Below are positions 25,919 to 35,868 of a stretch of 36,805 nucleotides of DNA, piece by piece. The position numbers and the translations under genes are program-made. The DNA is taken from positions 1-36,805 of IMG/VR virus record IMGVR_UViG_3300043465_000630; one strand, 5' to 3'. The first letter of the stretch is position 1, and every line of letters starts with the position of its first letter. Origin of the DNA: a virus. The notes below the pieces were generated by a model. That model was not told the DNA's origin. It saw only the letters and a list, made by a program, of their open reading frames with translations, and did not search any database.

Positions 25919-26740
25919 TCAAGACGCTCCTATGACTTCGAGAGAACCGACATTGCCGGTGAATATGTTGTAACGCAGGGATGCCAGAACTGAAACTCGT
26001 GACCTGCGACGTGGAGCGAGTTCGTAGGCGATGCCGCGACGTGAGGCGAGGATGCGGATTTCGTTTTCGGAAACTACTCTGTGATAAATCCTTACATCTA
26101 ACATTTGCCCGTTGAAGTTTCTGCCGGAAACGAACGTGAAGTCTACGCCAAGCACTAACTTATTTGCACTCGTAATCGGTGACACAGCGGCAGTTTTCGA
26201 GCCAACAAGCGAACCGTTAAGATATACCTTATACGTGCTTCCGTCTGCCATCCCTGCAATATGCTGCCATGAGCCATTAGCCACAGTTCCACCAGCAACA
26301 AAACTTACAGCATTTTCGTCGTAAGAAAACTGGATAGCACCAGAGCGAAGTCGAAAAAACATAGGCCCGCCGCTTTGGTCGCTACAGACGACTCCCTGAA
26401 ATCCAGACGTACCACCAGATACGTTGACCGGCTTAATCCATGCGGAAACAAAAAACGGCAGTGAGTTTATTAAAGCACTCCCACTAGCTCCCATATCCAC
26501 ATAGTCGTTCGATCCGTCGAAATCCAGTGCGTACGATTTATCGGTGGCAACCAAGTCCGTTCCTGGGTCCATGTTTGTGAGTGTTCCGTGATTTCCCCTG
26601 CCGCTCCAGTCCCTGAGCGTCAAGCCAGTCGGACCCAGCCCCGGATTCCACGCACCGACGCAACCACGCCATAACTCTGGATAGAGCGGCTGTCCGTCGC
26701 GTGGTGAAAATCCGTTGGCGTATGATCCGGGAAGTATCAT
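25919..26740 (-). CDS. LamG/concanavalin-like appendage protein, copy 1
   Basis: 273 residues. A concanavalin-type lectin fold occupies about 30-225: 'ALDFDGSNDYVDMG', 'FFVSAWIKPVNVSGG', 'WQHIAGMADGSTYKVYLNGSL' and 'NGQMLDVRIYHRVVSENEI' are the strand order of LamG_3 domains. The first 30 residues (MILPGSYANGFSPRDGQPLY...) and the 'GIAYELAPRRRSR' tail are shared with the next gene. Such domains bind glycans and are common on phage surface fibres. Start ATG at 26740 overlaps the upstream stop. A receptor-binding role is inferred. Confidence 0.8.
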   Translation of the reverse strand: MILPGSYANGFSPRDGQPLYPELWRGCVGAWNPGLGPTGLTLRDWSGRGNHGTLTNMDPGTDLVATDKSYALDFDGSNDYVDMGASGSALINSLPFFVSAWIKPVNVSGGTSGFQGVVCSDQSGGPMFFRLRSGAIQFSYDENAVSFVAGGTVANGSWQHIAGMADGSTYKVYLNGSLVGSKTAAVSPITSANKLVLGVDFTFVSGRNFNGQMLDVRIYHRVVSENEIRILASRRGIAYELAPRRRSRVSVLASLRYNIFTGNVGSLEVIGAS

Positions 26741-27525
26741 CGTGCCCCTCGCAGGATCGACGGACGGAGAGCGGAGAACCCCGATGTTATAACTACTGCC
26801 CGTGAACGCCGACGTGGTGCCATCTCGTAGGCGATGCCTGGGCGTGTCGAGTACAGGCGAATTAAATTTTCACTCAATGCGGTATTAAAAATCATCATGT
26901 CGCTAATGCTGCCATTTAGCACTAGCGACGTGACCCCAGTGTTAGTAAATCCTGATCCTATTCTCGCCTCGCCGTTTGTGTAGTTTGCCGTCCGGCTTGC
27001 GGATTTTTCGAGAATGCCCGACACATAGACGCGAGACGTTGTTCCATCGTAAGACGCAGCCAGTGCATACCATACGTCATTTTGCAGCGTCGTTGTGCCC
27101 GTGTCGACATTGGCTCCGTCGATGGCCGTTTCGAATTTTGAGGTAGATGTCAATCTCGTCGTAATGTATGTGCCGCCGCCGCCAATTCTGCCTTGACTAA
27201 ATGGTATTTGCAGCGTGCCGAGCGATGCTGGGCGTACCCAGTGCATGATCGTAAATCGTCCCGATGGTATTGGTGCATCGTTCGTCAGATTGACATAATC
27301 ATCCGATCCGTCGAACGTCACGGCATATTTTCCGTGCGCCGGACCCCACGTCGGCCCGCCCGTCAGTGTGCCATGATTTCCGCGTCCACTCCAATCACGC
27401 AACGTCAACCCGCTCGGCCCCAAGCATGGTGCAGCCGCGAAAACGCAACCACGCCACAACTCTGGATAGAGCGGCATCCCGTCGCGTGGTGCGAATCCGT
27501 TAGCATATGATGCTGGCAGTATCAC
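26737..27525 (-). CDS. LamG/concanavalin-like appendage protein, copy 2 (paralogue)
   Basis: 262 residues starting at GTG 27523-27525 (GTGA overlap with the upstream stop). Domain order equals its neighbour: 'AVTFDGSDDYVNLT', 'FTIMHWVRPASLG', 'WYALAASYDGTTSRVYVSG' and 'NGSISDMMIFNTALSENLI', ending 'RPGIAYEMAPRRRSRA'. The N-terminal 30 residues and the last conserved motif are nearly identical to copy 1, also at DNA level, while the sugar-binding core is strongly diverged. This looks like an old tandem duplication with conserved attachment ends and variable lectin face. Confidence 0.8.
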   Translation of the reverse strand: MILPASYANGFAPRDGMPLYPELWRGCVFAAAPCLGPSGLTLRDWSGRGNHGTLTGGPTWGPAHGKYAVTFDGSDDYVNLTNDAPIPSGRFTIMHWVRPASLGTLQIPFSQGRIGGGGTYITTRLTSTSKFETAIDGANVDTGTTTLQNDVWYALAASYDGTTSRVYVSGILEKSASRTANYTNGEARIGSGFTNTGVTSLVLNGSISDMMIFNTALSENLIRLYSTRPGIAYEMAPRRRSRAVVITSGFSALRPSILRGAR

Positions 27526-28902: not shown

Positions 28903-28931
28903 TTGTCCCGCAAAGGCAGACTGTTTATTGT
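28903..28931 (+). promoter_or_regulatory. Possible promoter for the DUF559 gene
   Basis: TTGTCC, 17 bases, TATTGT just before the very strong GGGAGGAGG ribosome site. It does not match the TACNNT family seen at the other sites. Weak evidence. Confidence 0.3.
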
Positions 28932-28948
28932 TATGGGAGGAGGTGTTT

Positions 28949-29338
28949 ATGTACCGACTAAAACGAAAGATACCGCGTAAGAAGAAACGATGCAAGGCCG
29001 CTACTGAGGCTTACGCACTGATTCTTCGAAAGAACATGACTAAAGCCGAAGCACTCTTCTGGAAGTTTCTGAAGAAGAGACAGAAGACATGGCTGCATAC
29101 GTTCGATCCGCAGGCTGTAGTTCACGGTTACATACCCGACTTCTATTGCCCTTCATTATTTCTGGCAGTAGAAATAGATGGCAGGATTCACGACAGGAAG
29201 AACGTAAAGCGTAACGACCGCATAAGGACCCGAAGGCTTAACAAACACGGCGTTACTGTCATAAGATTCAGGAACAGCGATGTGTTCAGTGGGGTGCAGA
29301 AACTGCTGGATATACTGGAGGAAGTAGCACTGGATTAA
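28949..29338 (+). CDS. DUF559 (Vsr-like, PD-(D/E)xK) endonuclease
   Basis: 129 residues. Start ATG at 28949-28951 is set by GGGAGGAGG seven bases upstream. A Lys/Arg-rich N-terminus (1-20) is followed by the DUF559 core: 'MTKAEALFWKFLKKRQ' (30-45), 'GYIPDFYCPSLFLAVEIDGR' (60-79; Asp64, Glu75, Asp77), His81 and 'TVIRFRNSDVFSGVQKLLDIL'. The family shares the Vsr mismatch-endonuclease fold. In phages it often appears as a stand-alone, possibly mobile nuclease. It lies on the plus strand against minus-strand neighbours and ends four bases inside the next convergent gene, consistent with later insertion. Target unknown. Confidence 0.85.
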   Translation: MYRLKRKIPRKKKRCKAATEAYALILRKNMTKAEALFWKFLKKRQKTWLHTFDPQAVVHGYIPDFYCPSLFLAVEIDGRIHDRKNVKRNDRIRTRRLNKHGVTVIRFRNSDVFSGVQKLLDILEEVALD

Positions 29339-29607
29339 CGACGATAGCCCAACCCATGTAACTGGATGGCTAGACCATGGGTAATGGCTTCTTCAGTCTT
29401 ATCGGTCAGTACACAGGTCAATCCTGTCTCGTGCAGCACAGCATGGATGACCTCATGTAATTCGATCAGTGCAGGAGACATGTTCGTATGCTCCTCCAGA
29501 TCGTCAGCAATGGTGATTACAGCGTTGCATGGGTCACACAGCCCAAAGTTACCGGGAATGCTGCCACGCCGCACTGTATAGCTTCGCCCACAGATTTTAA
29601 GTTTCAT
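29335..29607 (-). CDS. Mini zinc metalloprotease-like protein (HExxH)
   Basis: 90 residues. 'LIELHEVIHAVLHETG' contains HEVIH (51-55) in a helix, and 'TEEAITHGLAIQL' 17 residues later offers a Glu third ligand, the zincin pattern of ImmA/IrrE-like and phage putative metallopeptidases. Two Cys (24, 27: CDPC) precede it. The small size suggests a minimal zincin; ImmA-like proteases usually exceed 130 residues. Translationally coupled to the phosphoesterase gene (ATGA) and convergent with the DUF559 gene. Substrate unknown. Confidence 0.72.
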   Translation of the reverse strand: MKLKICGRSYTVRRGSIPGNFGLCDPCNAVITIADDLEEHTNMSPALIELHEVIHAVLHETGLTCVLTDKTEEAITHGLAIQLHGLGYRR

Positions 29608-30293
29608 GTTAGCGGCATCCTCTCGAAAAATGCTGTTTGTGAGTCAATCACTACACCACATCCAATTATCGGTTTCGCTGAAAATTTGATACCGTAATCC
29701 ATCTGCATGTGTTTGCGGTCTATTCCGCAGCCAACTTGCATACCAAATATGATGCTGGCTTCATTAGCGTGGTACCAGACTCCTCCTTGGGAGTGGTAAT
29801 GACCTTGCACTACGGACATAAACTCAGCGTGAGCATTCTTAAGGGCAGCGAACTGACCTCCCTTACCTTGGTCTCCGTGCTGATAGAGCACGTCATTGAT
29901 GACCAGTTTGTGGTATCGAGGGAAGACTTCCCATCCTCTGGGGAGAGAGAAGATACTCTTGAAGTCTCGTAACAGTTTCTGAGGTAAACCAGCAGTGGTG
30001 GCTTGCCGTTGGATGAGGGCGTCGTGGTTGCCCAGCAGGAGCTTAACACGGGGGAAGTACTCTGTGAGAGTATTGATCTGAGCAGCAGCATCATCGAGTT
30101 CTACTGCTGAGGTAGCCTCAACTGACCGCTCATGGTAGCTGATGCAGTGAAGGTCTACCAAGTCTCCAATGTGGATGACTTTGGTACAGCGATACTTCTC
30201 ATAGATCCTGAGAAGGAAGTCAGGATAACCATGGAGCATACATGGTGCATGACAATCACCAATAACCAGAGTAGCAGAAGGTTTAGTCATCAT
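29604..30293 (-). CDS. Calcineurin-like metallophosphoesterase
   Basis: 229 residues from the tandem ATGs at 30293/30290, with GAGAG just upstream. All metal-site motifs are present: GDCHAP (12-17), GDLVDLH (43-49), GNHD (88-91) and 'VVQGHYHSQGG' further on, with a 'YQHGDQGKGG' His between. It can hydrolyse phosphoesters; phage homologues act on nucleotides or nucleic-acid ends, but specificity is unclear. The frame stays open to an ATG at 30413, adding a hydrophobic 40-residue N-terminus. I reject this because a terminator hairpin lies there and no ribosome site is seen, though a membrane-anchored form is not excluded. Confidence 0.82.
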   Translation of the reverse strand: MMTKPSATLVIGDCHAPCMLHGYPDFLLRIYEKYRCTKVIHIGDLVDLHCISYHERSVEATSAVELDDAAAQINTLTEYFPRVKLLLGNHDALIQRQATTAGLPQKLLRDFKSIFSLPRGWEVFPRYHKLVINDVLYQHGDQGKGGQFAALKNAHAEFMSVVQGHYHSQGGVWYHANEASIIFGMQVGCGIDRKHMQMDYGIKFSAKPIIGCGVVIDSQTAFFERMPLT

Positions 30294-30384
30294 ACTCTCA
30301 CTGGGGATGGGAGTAATGAATACTGCGTCTACAGCAGCTAGTGTTACTGTGACCATTGCATACCCCTCTATCCCCACGCACAGT

Positions 30385-30407
30385 AAAAACAAGCCTATGG
30401 TGGCTTG
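30385..30407 (-). terminator. Minus-strand intrinsic terminator
   Basis: Minus strand reads CAAGCC-ACCATA-GGCTTG followed by TTTTT. This is a compact 6-bp stem with a U run, 92 bases before the phosphoesterase start. It could stop antisense transcription coming through the thyX region, end a short RNA, or attenuate the phosphoesterase mRNA. Confidence 0.6.
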
Positions 30408-30804
30408 CTTCATTTAACTGCGAGTAAGTTGAGATATGCAACGTCTTTGTGACCATTGACATGTTCCTCCGTCATATTGCTTAACATCGTTGACGAACAG
30501 GTTACATGTTCCTGCCTCTTCCGATGGTGGCGGCTTATTCATCCGGGGTTTCCACATAGCCGATGGTAAGCTCGGCAAACACGCTGAGGCCTCATCTTCA
30601 CCGATTGGACAGGAATTGTCAATCCATATTTACAAATACTCACAATCTGTACCCTCAGCAGACTCAGATACGCTGGAATGCCTCCAGAATCGCACAGAAT
30701 GGCCCTAGAACGCTGTTGGACCGTCAACATGACTCTATTCATCCTGCGTGGAGAAGGGCTTGTAGAGGCTCCTAGAGCGTCATCAATATTCTTGATACCA
30801 ATGG

Positions 30805-30832
30805 TTGACTAATGCTGTAGATCTGATACAGT
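30805..30832 (+). promoter_or_regulatory. Promoter of the thyX operon (TTGACT-16-TACAGT)
   Basis: TTGACT (30805-30810), 16 bases, then TACAGT (30827-30832) within TGATACAGT. It leaves about 30 bases to the thyX ATG, which has GGAGG. Same layout as the other phage promoters found here. Confidence 0.65.
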
Positions 30833-30868: not shown

Positions 30869-31687
30869 ATGTTTAACGCCAAGGTACTGGCAGACAGTAC
30901 CAATCTGTGTGGTAACAGACTGATAACGATGGAGATGACCTACCCACGGTTCATCCACGCAGAGCATCTGAGACATCGGATGTTCAGCTTTAACGTAGCA
31001 TCCAGCAGGGCTATCCCTGTGGAGAAGATGATTGAGCAGGTAGAGAACAATCCTGTTATTCCTATGCACTGGGGTAAGGCTCAGAAGGGTATGCAGGCTT
31101 ACGAAGTGTTGTCAGGACTAGATGCCAATGAGTGCAAGGATTTGTGGCTAACTGCCAGAGACTACTGTCTGGGTGCTGCTGAAGCGATGATGATCAATGG
31201 TCTGCACAAACAGATCATCAATCGCATCCTAGAACCGTGGATGTGGTGTACGGTCATCTGTACTGGCAGCCAAGGTGCGTGGAATAACTTCTGGGCATTG
31301 AGATGTCATCCAGAAGCAGAGCCACACATGCAGAATATTGCAGAGCATACACGAGAGGCTGCTAATGCTTCTGAGACAGACAGGTTGTTTGAGGGTGACT
31401 GGCACCTGCCATTGATAGGATTCGATGGTGATGAGCAGTTATCCGCATCAGACGCTGTAAAGGTGTCTGCTGGTCGATGTGCTCGGGTCAGTTACCTGAC
31501 GCATGATGGTGTACGCAATGTGCAGGCAGATATTGATTTGTGCCAGCGTTTAGTAACATCGAAGCACTTTAGTCCTACAGAACATCAGGCTATGTGCAGT
31601 GAGGTCCTTGATGGGCAGGGCGGCAACCTTGGTACTGGATGGGTTCAGTTTCGTAAGACTTTGATTGGAGAGTATCAATGTCAGTAG
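30869..31687 (+). CDS. thyX: Flavin-dependent thymidylate synthase (ThyX-like)
   Basis: 272 residues. It makes dTMP from dUMP using FAD and methylene-tetrahydrofolate. The ThyX signature is present as RHRMFSFNVASSR (35-47), followed by 'AIPVEKMIEQV' and 'PMHWGKAQKGMQA', the form typical of phage and bacterial divergent ThyX proteins. 'LHKQIINRILEPWMWCTVICTGS' and 'NNFWALRCHPEAEPHMQNIA' provide the substrate-binding Arg region. The C-terminal 'SAGRCARVSYLTHDG' and 'HFSPTEHQA' complete the family. GGAGG precedes the ATG. It starts a plus-strand nucleotide-metabolism operon with the next two genes. Confidence 0.9.
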   Translation: MFNAKVLADSTNLCGNRLITMEMTYPRFIHAEHLRHRMFSFNVASSRAIPVEKMIEQVENNPVIPMHWGKAQKGMQAYEVLSGLDANECKDLWLTARDYCLGAAEAMMINGLHKQIINRILEPWMWCTVICTGSQGAWNNFWALRCHPEAEPHMQNIAEHTREAANASETDRLFEGDWHLPLIGFDGDEQLSASDAVKVSAGRCARVSYLTHDGVRNVQADIDLCQRLVTSKHFSPTEHQAMCSEVLDGQGGNLGTGWVQFRKTLIGEYQCQ

Positions 31688-32328
31688 AGTACAGAGAGTT
31701 GGGGCAGCATGAGGTTATAGAGTGGTGTAAGGGAGATCAGACTTGTTTTCATGGAGGCTGGGTAGGAAGTGCTTACGACTTTCCCGACTGCATGACTCCA
31801 TTTAAGGAGGCTCAGGGCCGCGGATATGAGGTCAAGTACCGAAGACCAGTGGATGCTGACGTGATCAGTAAACCTACTGTCCCAGAGCATGTGAAGGACA
31901 CCAATCCCAAAGATGCTATTGGATGCACTAAGCCTCCTATTGCCAATGTTCCCCTCTCAGTAATTTCTGAGGTAGGAATGGCATTGGCTGAGGGTCAGTA
32001 TAAGTATGGAGGGTACAACTGGCGAGTCATTGGTGTCAGGGCGTCAGTGTACTGGGATGCTACCTTCAGACACATGAAAGCATGGTGGGAAGGTGAGGAT
32101 ACAGATCCTGACAGTCAGTTAAATCACGTTACCAAGGCCATCAGTGCGTTGACTGTGCTGCGTGATGCCATGATTCAGGATAATTGGACTGATGATCGAC
32201 CACCCAGAAGCAAGCAGACGGCTAAAGCTGTGTCTGATCAGTACAAGCAGATGCTGGAGAGACTGAAGTCTTTGCAGCCAGAACCAGTCAATGGATACAC
32301 TCAGAAAGGTCTAGACGGTGCCAAGTGA
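31678..32328 (+). CDS. dATP/dGTP diphosphohydrolase-like protein (DUF5664, MazZ-related)
   Basis: 216 residues. Central domain 76-176 matches the DUF5664 / dATP-dGTP diphosphohydrolase pattern: 'NPKDAIGCTKPPIANVPLSV', 'ALAEGQYKYGGYNWR', 'SVYWDATFRHMKAWWEGEDT' and 'NHVTKAISALTVLRDA...DDRP'. The EGED and following Asp residues look like the metal site of all-alpha NTP pyrophosphatases. The family includes phage dNTP diphosphohydrolases related to MazZ, which supplies dGMP in 2-aminoadenine (Z) genome phages. The N-terminal 70 residues are a small extra domain ('HEVIEWCKGDQTCFHGGW'). The gene overlaps thyX by ten bases. Family strong, exact substrate unknown. Confidence 0.82.
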   Translation: MSVEYRELGQHEVIEWCKGDQTCFHGGWVGSAYDFPDCMTPFKEAQGRGYEVKYRRPVDADVISKPTVPEHVKDTNPKDAIGCTKPPIANVPLSVISEVGMALAEGQYKYGGYNWRVIGVRASVYWDATFRHMKAWWEGEDTDPDSQLNHVTKAISALTVLRDAMIQDNWTDDRPPRSKQTAKAVSDQYKQMLERLKSLQPEPVNGYTQKGLDGAK

Positions 32329-32545
32329 ACCAGAAGAACAGAAGAAGCGTAACCAAGGTGACTCAGCAGTGTATGGTATCTCTGCCACACAAGAGTTCTG
32401 GGATAAGATAGCTAAAGTAGCTGCAGCGAAGAAGATCTCACGATCAGCGGCAGTTGTGCTGGCTTGTAGTGATCATTATGGGTTTGGTGACGTGAAGACC
32501 AAGAGACCCGGAAGACCGAGGAAGAAGACTGTTAAAGGCAAGTAA
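32318..32545 (+). CDS. Small basic protein, possible RHH/AT-hook DNA binder
   Basis: 75 residues starting at GTG 32318-32320 (AAAGGT nine bases upstream), overlapping the previous gene. Middle part 'ATQEFWDKIAKVAAAKKISRSAAVVLACSDHYG' has the strand-helix-helix look of ribbon-helix-helix proteins. The tail 'KTKRPGRPRKKTVKGK' contains an AT-hook-like GRPRKK core. Last gene before a strong terminator. DNA binding is an inference from these two features. Confidence 0.62.
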   Translation: MPSEPEEQKKRNQGDSAVYGISATQEFWDKIAKVAAAKKISRSAAVVLACSDHYGFGDVKTKRPGRPRKKTVKGK

Positions 32546-32552
32546 TGAAAAG

Positions 32553-32589
32553 ACCCTGTCAGACTTATCATCTGGCAGGGTTTCTTTTT
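32553..32589 (+). terminator. Strong, probably bidirectional intrinsic terminator
   Basis: 11-bp stem ACCCTGTCAGA/TCTGGCAGGGT (one T-G wobble), 7-base loop, followed by TTTCTTTTTG on the plus strand. On the minus strand the same hairpin is followed by CTTTTC. It separates the convergent plus-strand nucleotide operon and the minus-strand terS-side genes. Confidence 0.88.
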
Positions 32590-34198: not shown

Positions 34199-34477
34199 AT
34201 GAGTGATGTGGTTGAGCAGGTTTTCAGTATTGTTGATGTGGATATGATGGATGCAATACGCGGTAATGATGTACCCGCTATGCTTAAGGCGGTGAATGAG
34301 ATGCAGAGCATTTTAATACGCGCCCTGACAGTTGGTGGCGTTTGTCGTGAGCGATACAGGATCATCTGTGAACTCATTCATAGCGTTGAAATGGACTGTC
34401 ATGACAATCTCGGACAAGTGTCTGACGATACACTTCGAGACTATGACGAAGTGTTCCAATCGTTCATGCTGCGATAG
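34199..34477 (+). CDS. Hypothetical small helical protein
   Basis: 92 residues from ATG at 34199-34201, preceded by CAGGAG at eight bases. Entirely alpha-helical in look ('VEQVFSIVDVDMMDAIRGNDVPAMLKAVNEMQSILIRAL'), acidic, with three Cys. No family recognised. First gene of a plus-strand operon behind a predicted promoter. Codon style differs from the thyX operon (more CGN, GAT and ACG). Confidence 0.65.
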   Translation: MSDVVEQVFSIVDVDMMDAIRGNDVPAMLKAVNEMQSILIRALTVGGVCRERYRIICELIHSVEMDCHDNLGQVSDDTLRDYDEVFQSFMLR

Positions 34478-34515
34478 TGTCGATAGGTCCGTTCACACTT
34501 TTGGGAGTATTGAAC

Positions 34516-35868
34516 ATGGAAACCATTACAGAAAGCATGGTGGCCAGTATGACGATTGACGTTTTGCCAGAACTATTGACGGCGACAATGGACGATACGC
34601 AACGGGCCGAATGTATCGTTGATAAAACGATACTGGAAGGAACGTATCCAGCAGGGTACGGATTGACATTGGAAGGGTTTTTTGTCGTTCGCAACTACAA
34701 AACAGGTGAGCCACAAGTTAAACCGATTGACCATTTGCTGGGTTTGGCTAATAGTCGGGATATCGCACGGGTTACGATTCATAAAGTATGTTCGCCCAAA
34801 CTTCACTACGCGAACGGTGATAGGATACATGATGTCTTCGAATCGTATCGCCCTGGTTCGTGCATGCGATATCCGAACTGTTCGGACTTGCGTGAAATGT
34901 ACGTTCAAAACCCGGATGATGTGTCTTGCGTGTATTGGATAAAAGAGGAAAACGGCATTATCTGTTCGCATGGTTCTGCTTTGTTGTGGCACGGCAAAAA
35001 ACGTGTTTATCTGGATCGGGTTTATTGCGGAGGGTATCTTTCTTTCCCGTGTTGGATTGACAGTTTGTGCGACACAATATCCGCCAAGTATGGCAAGCCT
35101 GTTGTCACACTTTACAATGCGGGCAACGATACGCCGATACACGACAAGACTGTCACGTTTAAGCTTAAAATACCGTCTACAGGCTACGCACCTTACTGCG
35201 ATACTCTTTCCGTTATACGGAAAACGGATACCCGCAATAACTTGTTTTGGTTGTCATCGGACGGACCTGGAACGTCTTGTAATTCAACCGACGGTACGTC
35301 GATAGATGGTAGCGAACGTGAAGGCGTTTATCGCTGCTGTTGTTGCGGTGATAGAGTCTCTGAAGATGACGTATGTACTACGGATGGCGGTGATGGTACT
35401 TACTGCCAGTCGTGCTATGGTGATAACTTTTCACACTGTCAATGGAACGAAGAAGACTATAGTTCAGACGAAGTATCTGAACACGAGGTATACTGCTACG
35501 GTCCCTCACGTTATGCAACACGTTCAAACCGTGGTACGGCACAATGGCATTCGATGTTCATTTCTGACCAGGCATTGTCGGACGATTTTACCGAATTGAA
35601 TGACGGGCGTTATGTTCATTCAAGTCTAGTTGTCGAAGATGTAAACGGGGATTACCATGATCCAGAGGGCGATAGTTTTACCATAACGGAAAACGGGGAT
35701 ATATACCCGGTAGACGAAGTGTGTCAGCTAGTGAATGGTGAATGCCACCCGATTGACGATTGTGTTGAAGTTGACGGTGAATGGTATCTAGATGGAAGCC
35801 AGCCAGAAGTAGAACCAGAAGTAGAATCCACAACAATCAACCAGGAGAATGATAATGCTAACGCCTGA
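34516..35868 (+). CDS. Cys-rich phage protein with zinc-binding cluster, function unknown
   Basis: 450 residues from ATG at 34516-34518 (GGGAG eight to nine bases upstream; an earlier GTG at 34477 lacks a ribosome site). Residues 100-180 ('GSCMRYPNCSDLREMYVQNP', 'SALLWHGKKRVYLDRVYCGG') resemble an uncharacterised phage family with GSCM and 'ALLW...YLDR(I/V)Y' motifs that I recall from other phage genomes. Residues 272-300 hold a compact metal site: Cys274, Cys277, Cys287, Cys297, Cys300 (a Y-x-C-x2-C-G start and a C-Q-S-C end). The C-terminus is acidic with short repeats of 'xNGExxxxDxxVExDGEWY' type. The similar Cys pattern in the next gene is notable. Ends 14 bases inside the next gene. Confidence 0.7.
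   Translation: METITESMVASMTIDVLPELLTATMDDTQRAECIVDKTILEGTYPAGYGLTLEGFFVVRNYKTGEPQVKPIDHLLGLANSRDIARVTIHKVCSPKLHYANGDRIHDVFESYRPGSCMRYPNCSDLREMYVQNPDDVSCVYWIKEENGIICSHGSALLWHGKKRVYLDRVYCGGYLSFPCWIDSLCDTISAKYGKPVVTLYNAGNDTPIHDKTVTFKLKIPSTGYAPYCDTLSVIRKTDTRNNLFWLSSDGPGTSCNSTDGTSIDGSEREGVYRCCCCGDRVSEDDVCTTDGGDGTYCQSCYGDNFSHCQWNEEDYSSDEVSEHEVYCYGPSRYATRSNRGTAQWHSMFISDQALSDDFTELNDGRYVHSSLVVEDVNGDYHDPEGDSFTITENGDIYPVDEVCQLVNGECHPIDDCVEVDGEWYLDGSQPEVEPEVESTTINQENDNANA

Follow-up and report, generated by a model that had tools for sequence, protein, structure and literature searches.

A phage DUF5664 gene that overlaps a rearranged thyX, and its proposed role in nucleotide supply

The window, by which we mean the whole viral record of 36,805 bases analyzed here (it may be a fragment of its genome), contains a gene of the DUF5664 family that overlaps the gene for a flavin-dependent thymidylate synthase, ThyX, and is a further member of a family with a recurrent ThyX partnership. 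The reading that we favor, and regard as probable, is that the two genes form a thymidylate and dNTP-pool operon in which the DUF5664 enzyme makes dUMP from dUTP and trims dATP and dGTP beside ThyX. The DUF5664 gene would be co-expressed with thyX and probably translationally coupled to it; its product would hydrolyze dUTP to dUMP and pyrophosphate and would also trim dATP and dGTP to the monophosphates; ThyX would convert that dUMP to dTMP; and the two enzymes would together prevent uracil from entering phage DNA and provide thymidylate for replication. Catalysis, the place of dUTP as a main substrate, and the coupling of the two activities are what we infer. The analysis thereby suggests a job, dUMP supply to ThyX, for a widespread and mostly unnamed phage family. 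It also leaves one fewer candidate Z-DNA phage, and shows that 2-aminoadenine DNA cannot be diagnosed from the presence of DUF5664 by itself.

The DUF5664 gene and its surroundings

The thyX gene, the DUF5664 gene and a 75-aa ORF make up a short plus-strand unit flanked by minus-strand genes. The features of the region are as follows.

29335-29607, minus strand: small HExxH protein (phrog_1233)
29604-30413, minus strand: metallophosphoesterase (PF00149, 1.1e-7; phrog_221, 4.8e-45)
30805-30832, plus strand: weak promoter-like site 5′ of thyX (9 of 12 positions; frequency not above that in shuffled sequences)
30869-31687, plus strand: thyX, flavin-dependent thymidylate synthase (PF02511, phrog_85, AF2 model and structural match to solved ThyX)
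31678-32328, plus strand: DUF5664/PF18909 dNTP diphosphohydrolase-like gene (conserved domain at aa 73-176; N-terminal 60 or so aa variable)
32318-32545, plus strand: small basic protein, RHH-like with an AT-hook-like tail (domain reading by eye)
32551-32583, plus strand: intrinsic-terminator-like hairpin ending the three-gene unit (one found; mean of 1.4 in shuffled sequences)

The ORF at 31678-32328 (ATG start, 216 aa) is confirmed as real. Its first 10 bases are shared with the end of thyX, just 5′ of the DUF5664 ATG one can see by eye a GGAGAG stretch inside thyX, and the end of the DUF5664 gene is in turn overlapped by the 75-aa ORF. A PF18909 (formerly DUF5664) domain is recognized at aa 76-174 of the protein (E 1.8e-21); the score of 76.4 bits, against a curated cut-off of 27, places the protein in the family, and it also matches phrog_2252 at 2.4e-53. 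A sequence-only reading of this DNA had proposed a DUF5664-type gene here, a member of a dNTP diphosphohydrolase family that overlaps thyX and is followed by a putative DNA-binding protein; the profile matches and the overlap bear out the family and its place at thyX. In the viral fold library, all of the listed matches that bear a family name are dATP/dGTP diphosphohydrolases, and judging from its sequence the window protein would hydrolyze dNTPs to dNMPs. Many relatives of this phrog_2252 type go by the product name 'endolysin; inhibits RNA polymerase' in phage RefSeq (e.g. Mycobacterium phage Gaia, NC_026590), and this name looks like a propagated misannotation.

Homologues of the protein were confirmed in 107 stretches of viral contigs, the best 80 of which make up our set of DUF5664 loci. 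In an alignment of 61 proteins (the window protein and 60 from the best 80 of the 107 loci) 21 columns are invariant: K73, N76, P77, K78, D79, G82, K85, G106, K109, Y110, N114, R116, Y125, A128, H132, D143, H150, D163, D172, D173 and R174. The proteins of phages Wayne and SH-Ab 15497, both from Z phages and with published activity, are 21-22% identical to the window protein. When they are included in a 16-sequence alignment there are nevertheless 13 invariant columns, among them G106, K109, Y110, N114, A128, H132, D143, H150 and D172-D173-R174. The K73-D79 motif of the window subfamily (KDTNPKDA) is absent from the DUF5664 proteins of Z phages, and PF04447 (DUF550), which scores in two Z-phage proteins, has no match in the window protein. 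The N-terminal 62 aa have no match in phages, and the L004 protein is a 150-aa form that lacks this part. The gene is under strong purifying selection, with dN/dS of about 0.03-0.04 over 104 codons in comparisons with loci L002, L003 and L004; the NG86 estimates over the same number of codons are dN 0.04 and dS 0.99 against L002, and dN 0.05 and dS 1.78 against L003, and third codon positions account for 37 of 47 and 45 of 59 differences, respectively. Confidence in the AF2 model is high for the core (pLDDT of at least 90 in 115 of 216 residues) but not for residues 1-60. Searches with this model, a monomer of a likely oligomer, gave no Foldseek E below 0.9 and no VIA Z above 4.8, and no MazG-type structure appears in either list; since these scores are weak, we claim no solved fold for the protein.

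The product of the 75-aa ORF looks RHH-like in its N-terminal part and ends in a basic tail, GRPRKK, resembling an AT-hook (our own reading, by eye); it gives no library match at a useful E-value. It was rejected as a partner of the pair because it persists in relatives that have neither thyX nor DUF5664. Several other genes of the window deserve mention. A DUF559/REase_MTES_1575-like endonuclease gene (28928-29338) is retained in relative G061, which is without the thyX-DUF5664 block. Adjacent genes at 25919-26740 and 26737-27525 match the same virion/baseplate PHROG families (phrog_24074, phrog_8510) and are probably a tandem duplication. The 463-aa protein encoded at 34477-35868 has no Pfam match; it contains a cysteine cluster (CCCCGD...CQSC) and is conserved in relative G002. 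The TerL proteins of G061 and G064 (L145 6382-9231 and L144 980-3940) are 950-987 aa long and contain an insert of the LAGLIDADG/homing endonuclease type that the window TerL does not have and that is probably an intein.

Pairing with ThyX and the form of the partner

The association of DUF5664 with ThyX is seen in several ways. First, among 50 records (the window and 49 relatives) PF02511 scores in 15, and ten of these have ThyX no more than about 1 kb from DUF5664 (the window, G001-G005, G017, G019, G024 and G046); in the remaining five it is far away (G009, G028, G032, G041 and G043). When the records are collapsed into eight lineages, a grouping of our own, three of the eight have the genes within 1 kb, with a chance of 0.004 under uniform placement. 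Second, a dedicated profile finds ThyX in the searched flank at 13 of the DUF5664 loci (best 80 of 107), at most 680 bases away in 12, several of them overlapping, and at 6.5 kb in one; at the other 67 loci the searched flank has no ThyX. Third, when the search starts from the rearranged ThyX described below (the best 80 of at least 587 loci), DUF5664 is in the flank of 9, either adjacent or one HNH gene apart, and is missing from the flank of the other 71. Neither gene therefore needs the other. In bacterial contigs ThyX is found by DUF5664 in 2 of 32, overlapping in one and 3 kb off in the other. ThyA was also considered as a DUF5664 partner and rejected, as it occurs in 3 of the 50 records and in none within 10 kb of DUF5664.

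The pairing recurs with more than one form of ThyX. In a supported DUF5664 clade (97/94) the ThyX is of the rearranged form at loci L014 and L031 and canonical at L029, L033 and L041, always downstream, so the partner changed form and the pairing was kept. Roseophage EE36phi1 has the gene order dCMP deaminase, DUF5664, ThyX, and the gene table published for DSS3phi2 in 2009 gives the same order, with the middle gene entered as unknown (PMC2784036). Ten distinct terL-related records span the region; seven have both genes, three have neither and none has one alone. The phosphoesterase and HExxH genes are present or absent in the same pattern, so what is lost is a block and more than the pair alone. 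The neighbors of the rearranged ThyX (72 scanned of 88 listed neighbor proteins, with 7 of the 80 loci dropped) include MazG (5), dNMP kinase (4), dUTPase (1) and metallophosphoesterase (3). In three relatives (L004 9462-9971; also L160-L162) the position between thyX and DUF5664 is occupied by a gene for an HNH_3 endonuclease, and in phage SoKa (L242 1444-2899) a phosphoesterase gene directly precedes DUF5664.

The window ThyX matches PF02511 (4.8e-12; profile positions 59-184 on aa 19-164) and phrog_85 (1.6e-61), and the stretch RHRMFSFNVASSR near its N-terminus fits the ThyX signature, RHRxxSxNxxSxR. In the canonical order an AR...HxSPxEH segment precedes the RHR motif; the window protein departs from this order, with the segment at the C-terminal end instead (aa about 200-241). 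In 52 sequences the AR...SYLTH...H.SP.EH block near the C-terminus is marked by invariant R203, R206, S208, Y209, H233, P236, E238 and H239. Second ThyX profile stretches are present in four of six window-clade records (G001, G003, G004 and G005), where profile positions 4-59 match downstream of positions 60-190 in the same frame with E of about 1e-4. The AF2 model (pLDDT 92) aligns through residues 1-171 with solved ThyX structures at Z up to 13.8 (147 residues, rmsd 3.3), and alignment of its residues 1-170 with T. maritima ThyX 8-199 pairs 155 residues, leaving about 37 chain residues unmatched. The first strand seems to stay in place. A moved segment describes the protein better than a clean circular permutation would. 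It is the second stretches, the two-stretch matches, the conservation across 52 sequences and the structural alignment that make the case for a rearrangement. Three further comparisons count against it: a search of the doubled ThyX sequence with a narrow local profile of canonical ThyX failed to pick up the moved segment; comparison of single sequences among eight ThyX proteins found a weak second stretch in L004 only (E 0.42); and rotation of three ThyX proteins raised their Pfam scores by just 0.0-0.3 bits.

The rearranged form is common in phages. A tblastn search with the window ThyX matches 1,023 phage records, 996 of them over at least 80% of the query, and a profile scan confirms at least 587 viral stretches. 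ThyX has been studied as a drug target, and the rearranged protein would represent a naturally occurring change in the topology of that enzyme. In the open literature that we searched, including PMC7824862 and PMC8541194, we found no description of a permuted or rearranged ThyX, and the form is seemingly undescribed as such.

The substrate range proposed for the window enzyme is drawn from phage Wayne, whose DUF5664 enzyme hydrolyzes dATP, dUTP and dGTP to dNMPs, with a kcat of 0.48/s and Km of 20.3 uM for dATP, a kcat,app of 0.22/s and S50 of 12.5 uM for dUTP, and values of 0.053/s and 31.7 uM for dGTP (PMC12884076, Table 1). With the same substrate range, the window enzyme would supply dUMP for ThyX and lower dUTP. 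Searches of window-clade records found class I dUTPase in none of six, dUTPase_2 in none of seven (with a model that is positive in just 1 of 14 control genomes) and dCMP deaminase in none of seven. However, a real dUTPase is encoded besides the DUF5664-ThyX pair in G017, G019 and G024, which counts against an exclusive dUTPase role; G002 has a separate MazG, also a point against; and the tested Wayne enzyme is 21% identical to the window protein, belongs to another clade and prefers dATP. That the KDTNPKDA proteins are a third DUF5664 branch, serving as the dUTPase of ThyX phages in a dUTP-to-dUMP-to-dTMP module with the rearranged ThyX, is a suggestion from sequence that we advance tentatively.

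The preference of the Wayne enzyme bears on an alternative in which the window protein carries out general purine-dNTP trimming, mainly of dATP (and dGTP), rebalancing pools or starving the host, with the adjacency to thyX reflecting a shared operon. The kcat of the Wayne enzyme is highest on dATP, most DUF5664 loci (67 of the best 80 of 107) have no ThyX nearby, and thyX neighborhoods contain mixed nucleotide genes. Nonetheless, repeated adjacency or overlap with two ThyX forms in several lineages is more than a shared region would suggest, and we consider purine trimming of this kind unlikely, though a serious competitor to the dUMP-supplying operon.

Searches for a modified-base system

The sequence-only reading had also called the DUF5664 protein a MazZ relative and raised a link to 2-aminoadenine (Z) DNA, noting that PurZ and DatZ are missing from the window and might lie outside it, and had offered tuning of dNTP pools as a plainer reading. 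The two absences from the window are confirmed by PF00709 and PF12917 searches, and it is the plainer reading that the evidence favors. The PF00709 (PurA/PurZ) search finds nothing in 50 records (the window and 49 relatives) or in a further 37 (the other 31 relatives and six terL relatives), so that PurZ is absent from all 80 related viral records and the window, many of these records being fragments. All four PurZ phages run as positive controls with the second of these sets (S-2L, Wayne, SH-Ab 15497 and Kokobel2) were detected; Lyrsu02 was not. DatZ (PF12917) is found in none of six window-clade records (the window, G001, G002, G003, G005 and G053), with S-2L and SH-Ab positive as controls and the PurZ0 phage Wayne negative.

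Whether the missing genes lie beyond the window is addressed by G002, a close relative with a terminase 76% and a capsid 83% identical to the window's. Its 51.4-kb contig opens with genes homologous to those at the right end of the window and closes with terS; it therefore runs almost once round and lacks little of its genome, and this nearly complete genome has neither PurZ nor DatZ. It carries a family A polymerase, a primase, a Sak4-like ATPase and a separate MazG; the polymerase is 23-24% identical to those of Wayne and SH-Ab, a figure that does not settle its likeness to DpoZ.

The relationship to MazZ was the weak part of the earlier reading: hhalign of the homologues against S-2L MazZ gives a probability of 0.2%, and MazZ homology is rejected. 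DUF5664 itself does occur in PurZ and PurZ0 phages, which hold two separate groups of it (PMC12884076), and our tree of 37 domains, whose deep branches are long and partly weak, agrees with that statement. In this tree the PurZ0 pair forms a clade with the protein of phage Gordon (99/98), and the PurZ pair is separate (99/95); the window protein falls outside both clades, within a group of five thyX-adjacent phages (100/98), and the Z-phage proteins are 21-23% identical to it. A further consideration is that AT-hook proteins bind the minor groove, which Z DNA blocks, and the AT-hook-like neighbor would thus be expected to bind a groove that such DNA obstructs. With PurZ and DatZ absent from the records searched and the controls positive, a 2-aminoadenine system is rejected. 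Since the window itself is a fragment, the rejection draws on the best relatives to hand, such as G002, in which the gene that defines such a system is missing, and we give almost no credence to PurZ and DatZ lying elsewhere in the genome.

Another, undescribed modified-base system, in which the ThyX-like and DUF5664 proteins produce a modified pyrimidine and eliminate the ordinary one that competes with it, would be in keeping with two observations. Among the VIA rows, the longest alignment of the rearranged ThyX (164 residues) is with PolB, a UMP/dUMP methylase, and 6 of 10 scanned proteins of the G002 replication arm have no meaningful Pfam match. Yet no known base-modification family is present among those scanned and the window ThyX retains its catalytic motif, and we regard such a system as very unlikely.

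Relation to known systems

The thymidylate and dNTP-pool operon proposed here can be set beside several described proteins. Wayne DUF5664-1 (Arthrobacter phage, ALY10775.1) has the PF18909 domain and conserved residues of the window protein, but is of a different clade at 21% identity, lacks the KDTNPKDA motif and, unlike the window gene, adjoins purZ0 and a Dut-like gene. The DUF5664-DUF550 protein of Acinetobacter phage SH-Ab 15497, described in its whole form as active, shares the PF18909 domain; it is fused to PF04447, for which the window protein gives no match, and is encoded beside purZ. Cyanophage S-2L MazZ is likewise named a phage dNTP diphosphohydrolase, but has no detectable profile similarity to the window protein. 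The phrog_2252 family, with members in mycobacteriophages, Pseudomonas phage Lyrsu02 and Rhodobacter phage RcCWillis, is the window protein's own subfamily, at about 49-56% identity in the matched part; the loci examined are mostly without a neighboring thyX, with ThyX about 3 kb off in RcCWillis and none in the examined stretch of Lyrsu02. Finally, roseophages EE36phi1 and DSS3phi2 (the latter by its published table) have a DUF5664 gene very divergent in sequence from the window's, that of EE36phi1 on a long branch, and place it directly before ThyX and after dCMP deaminase.
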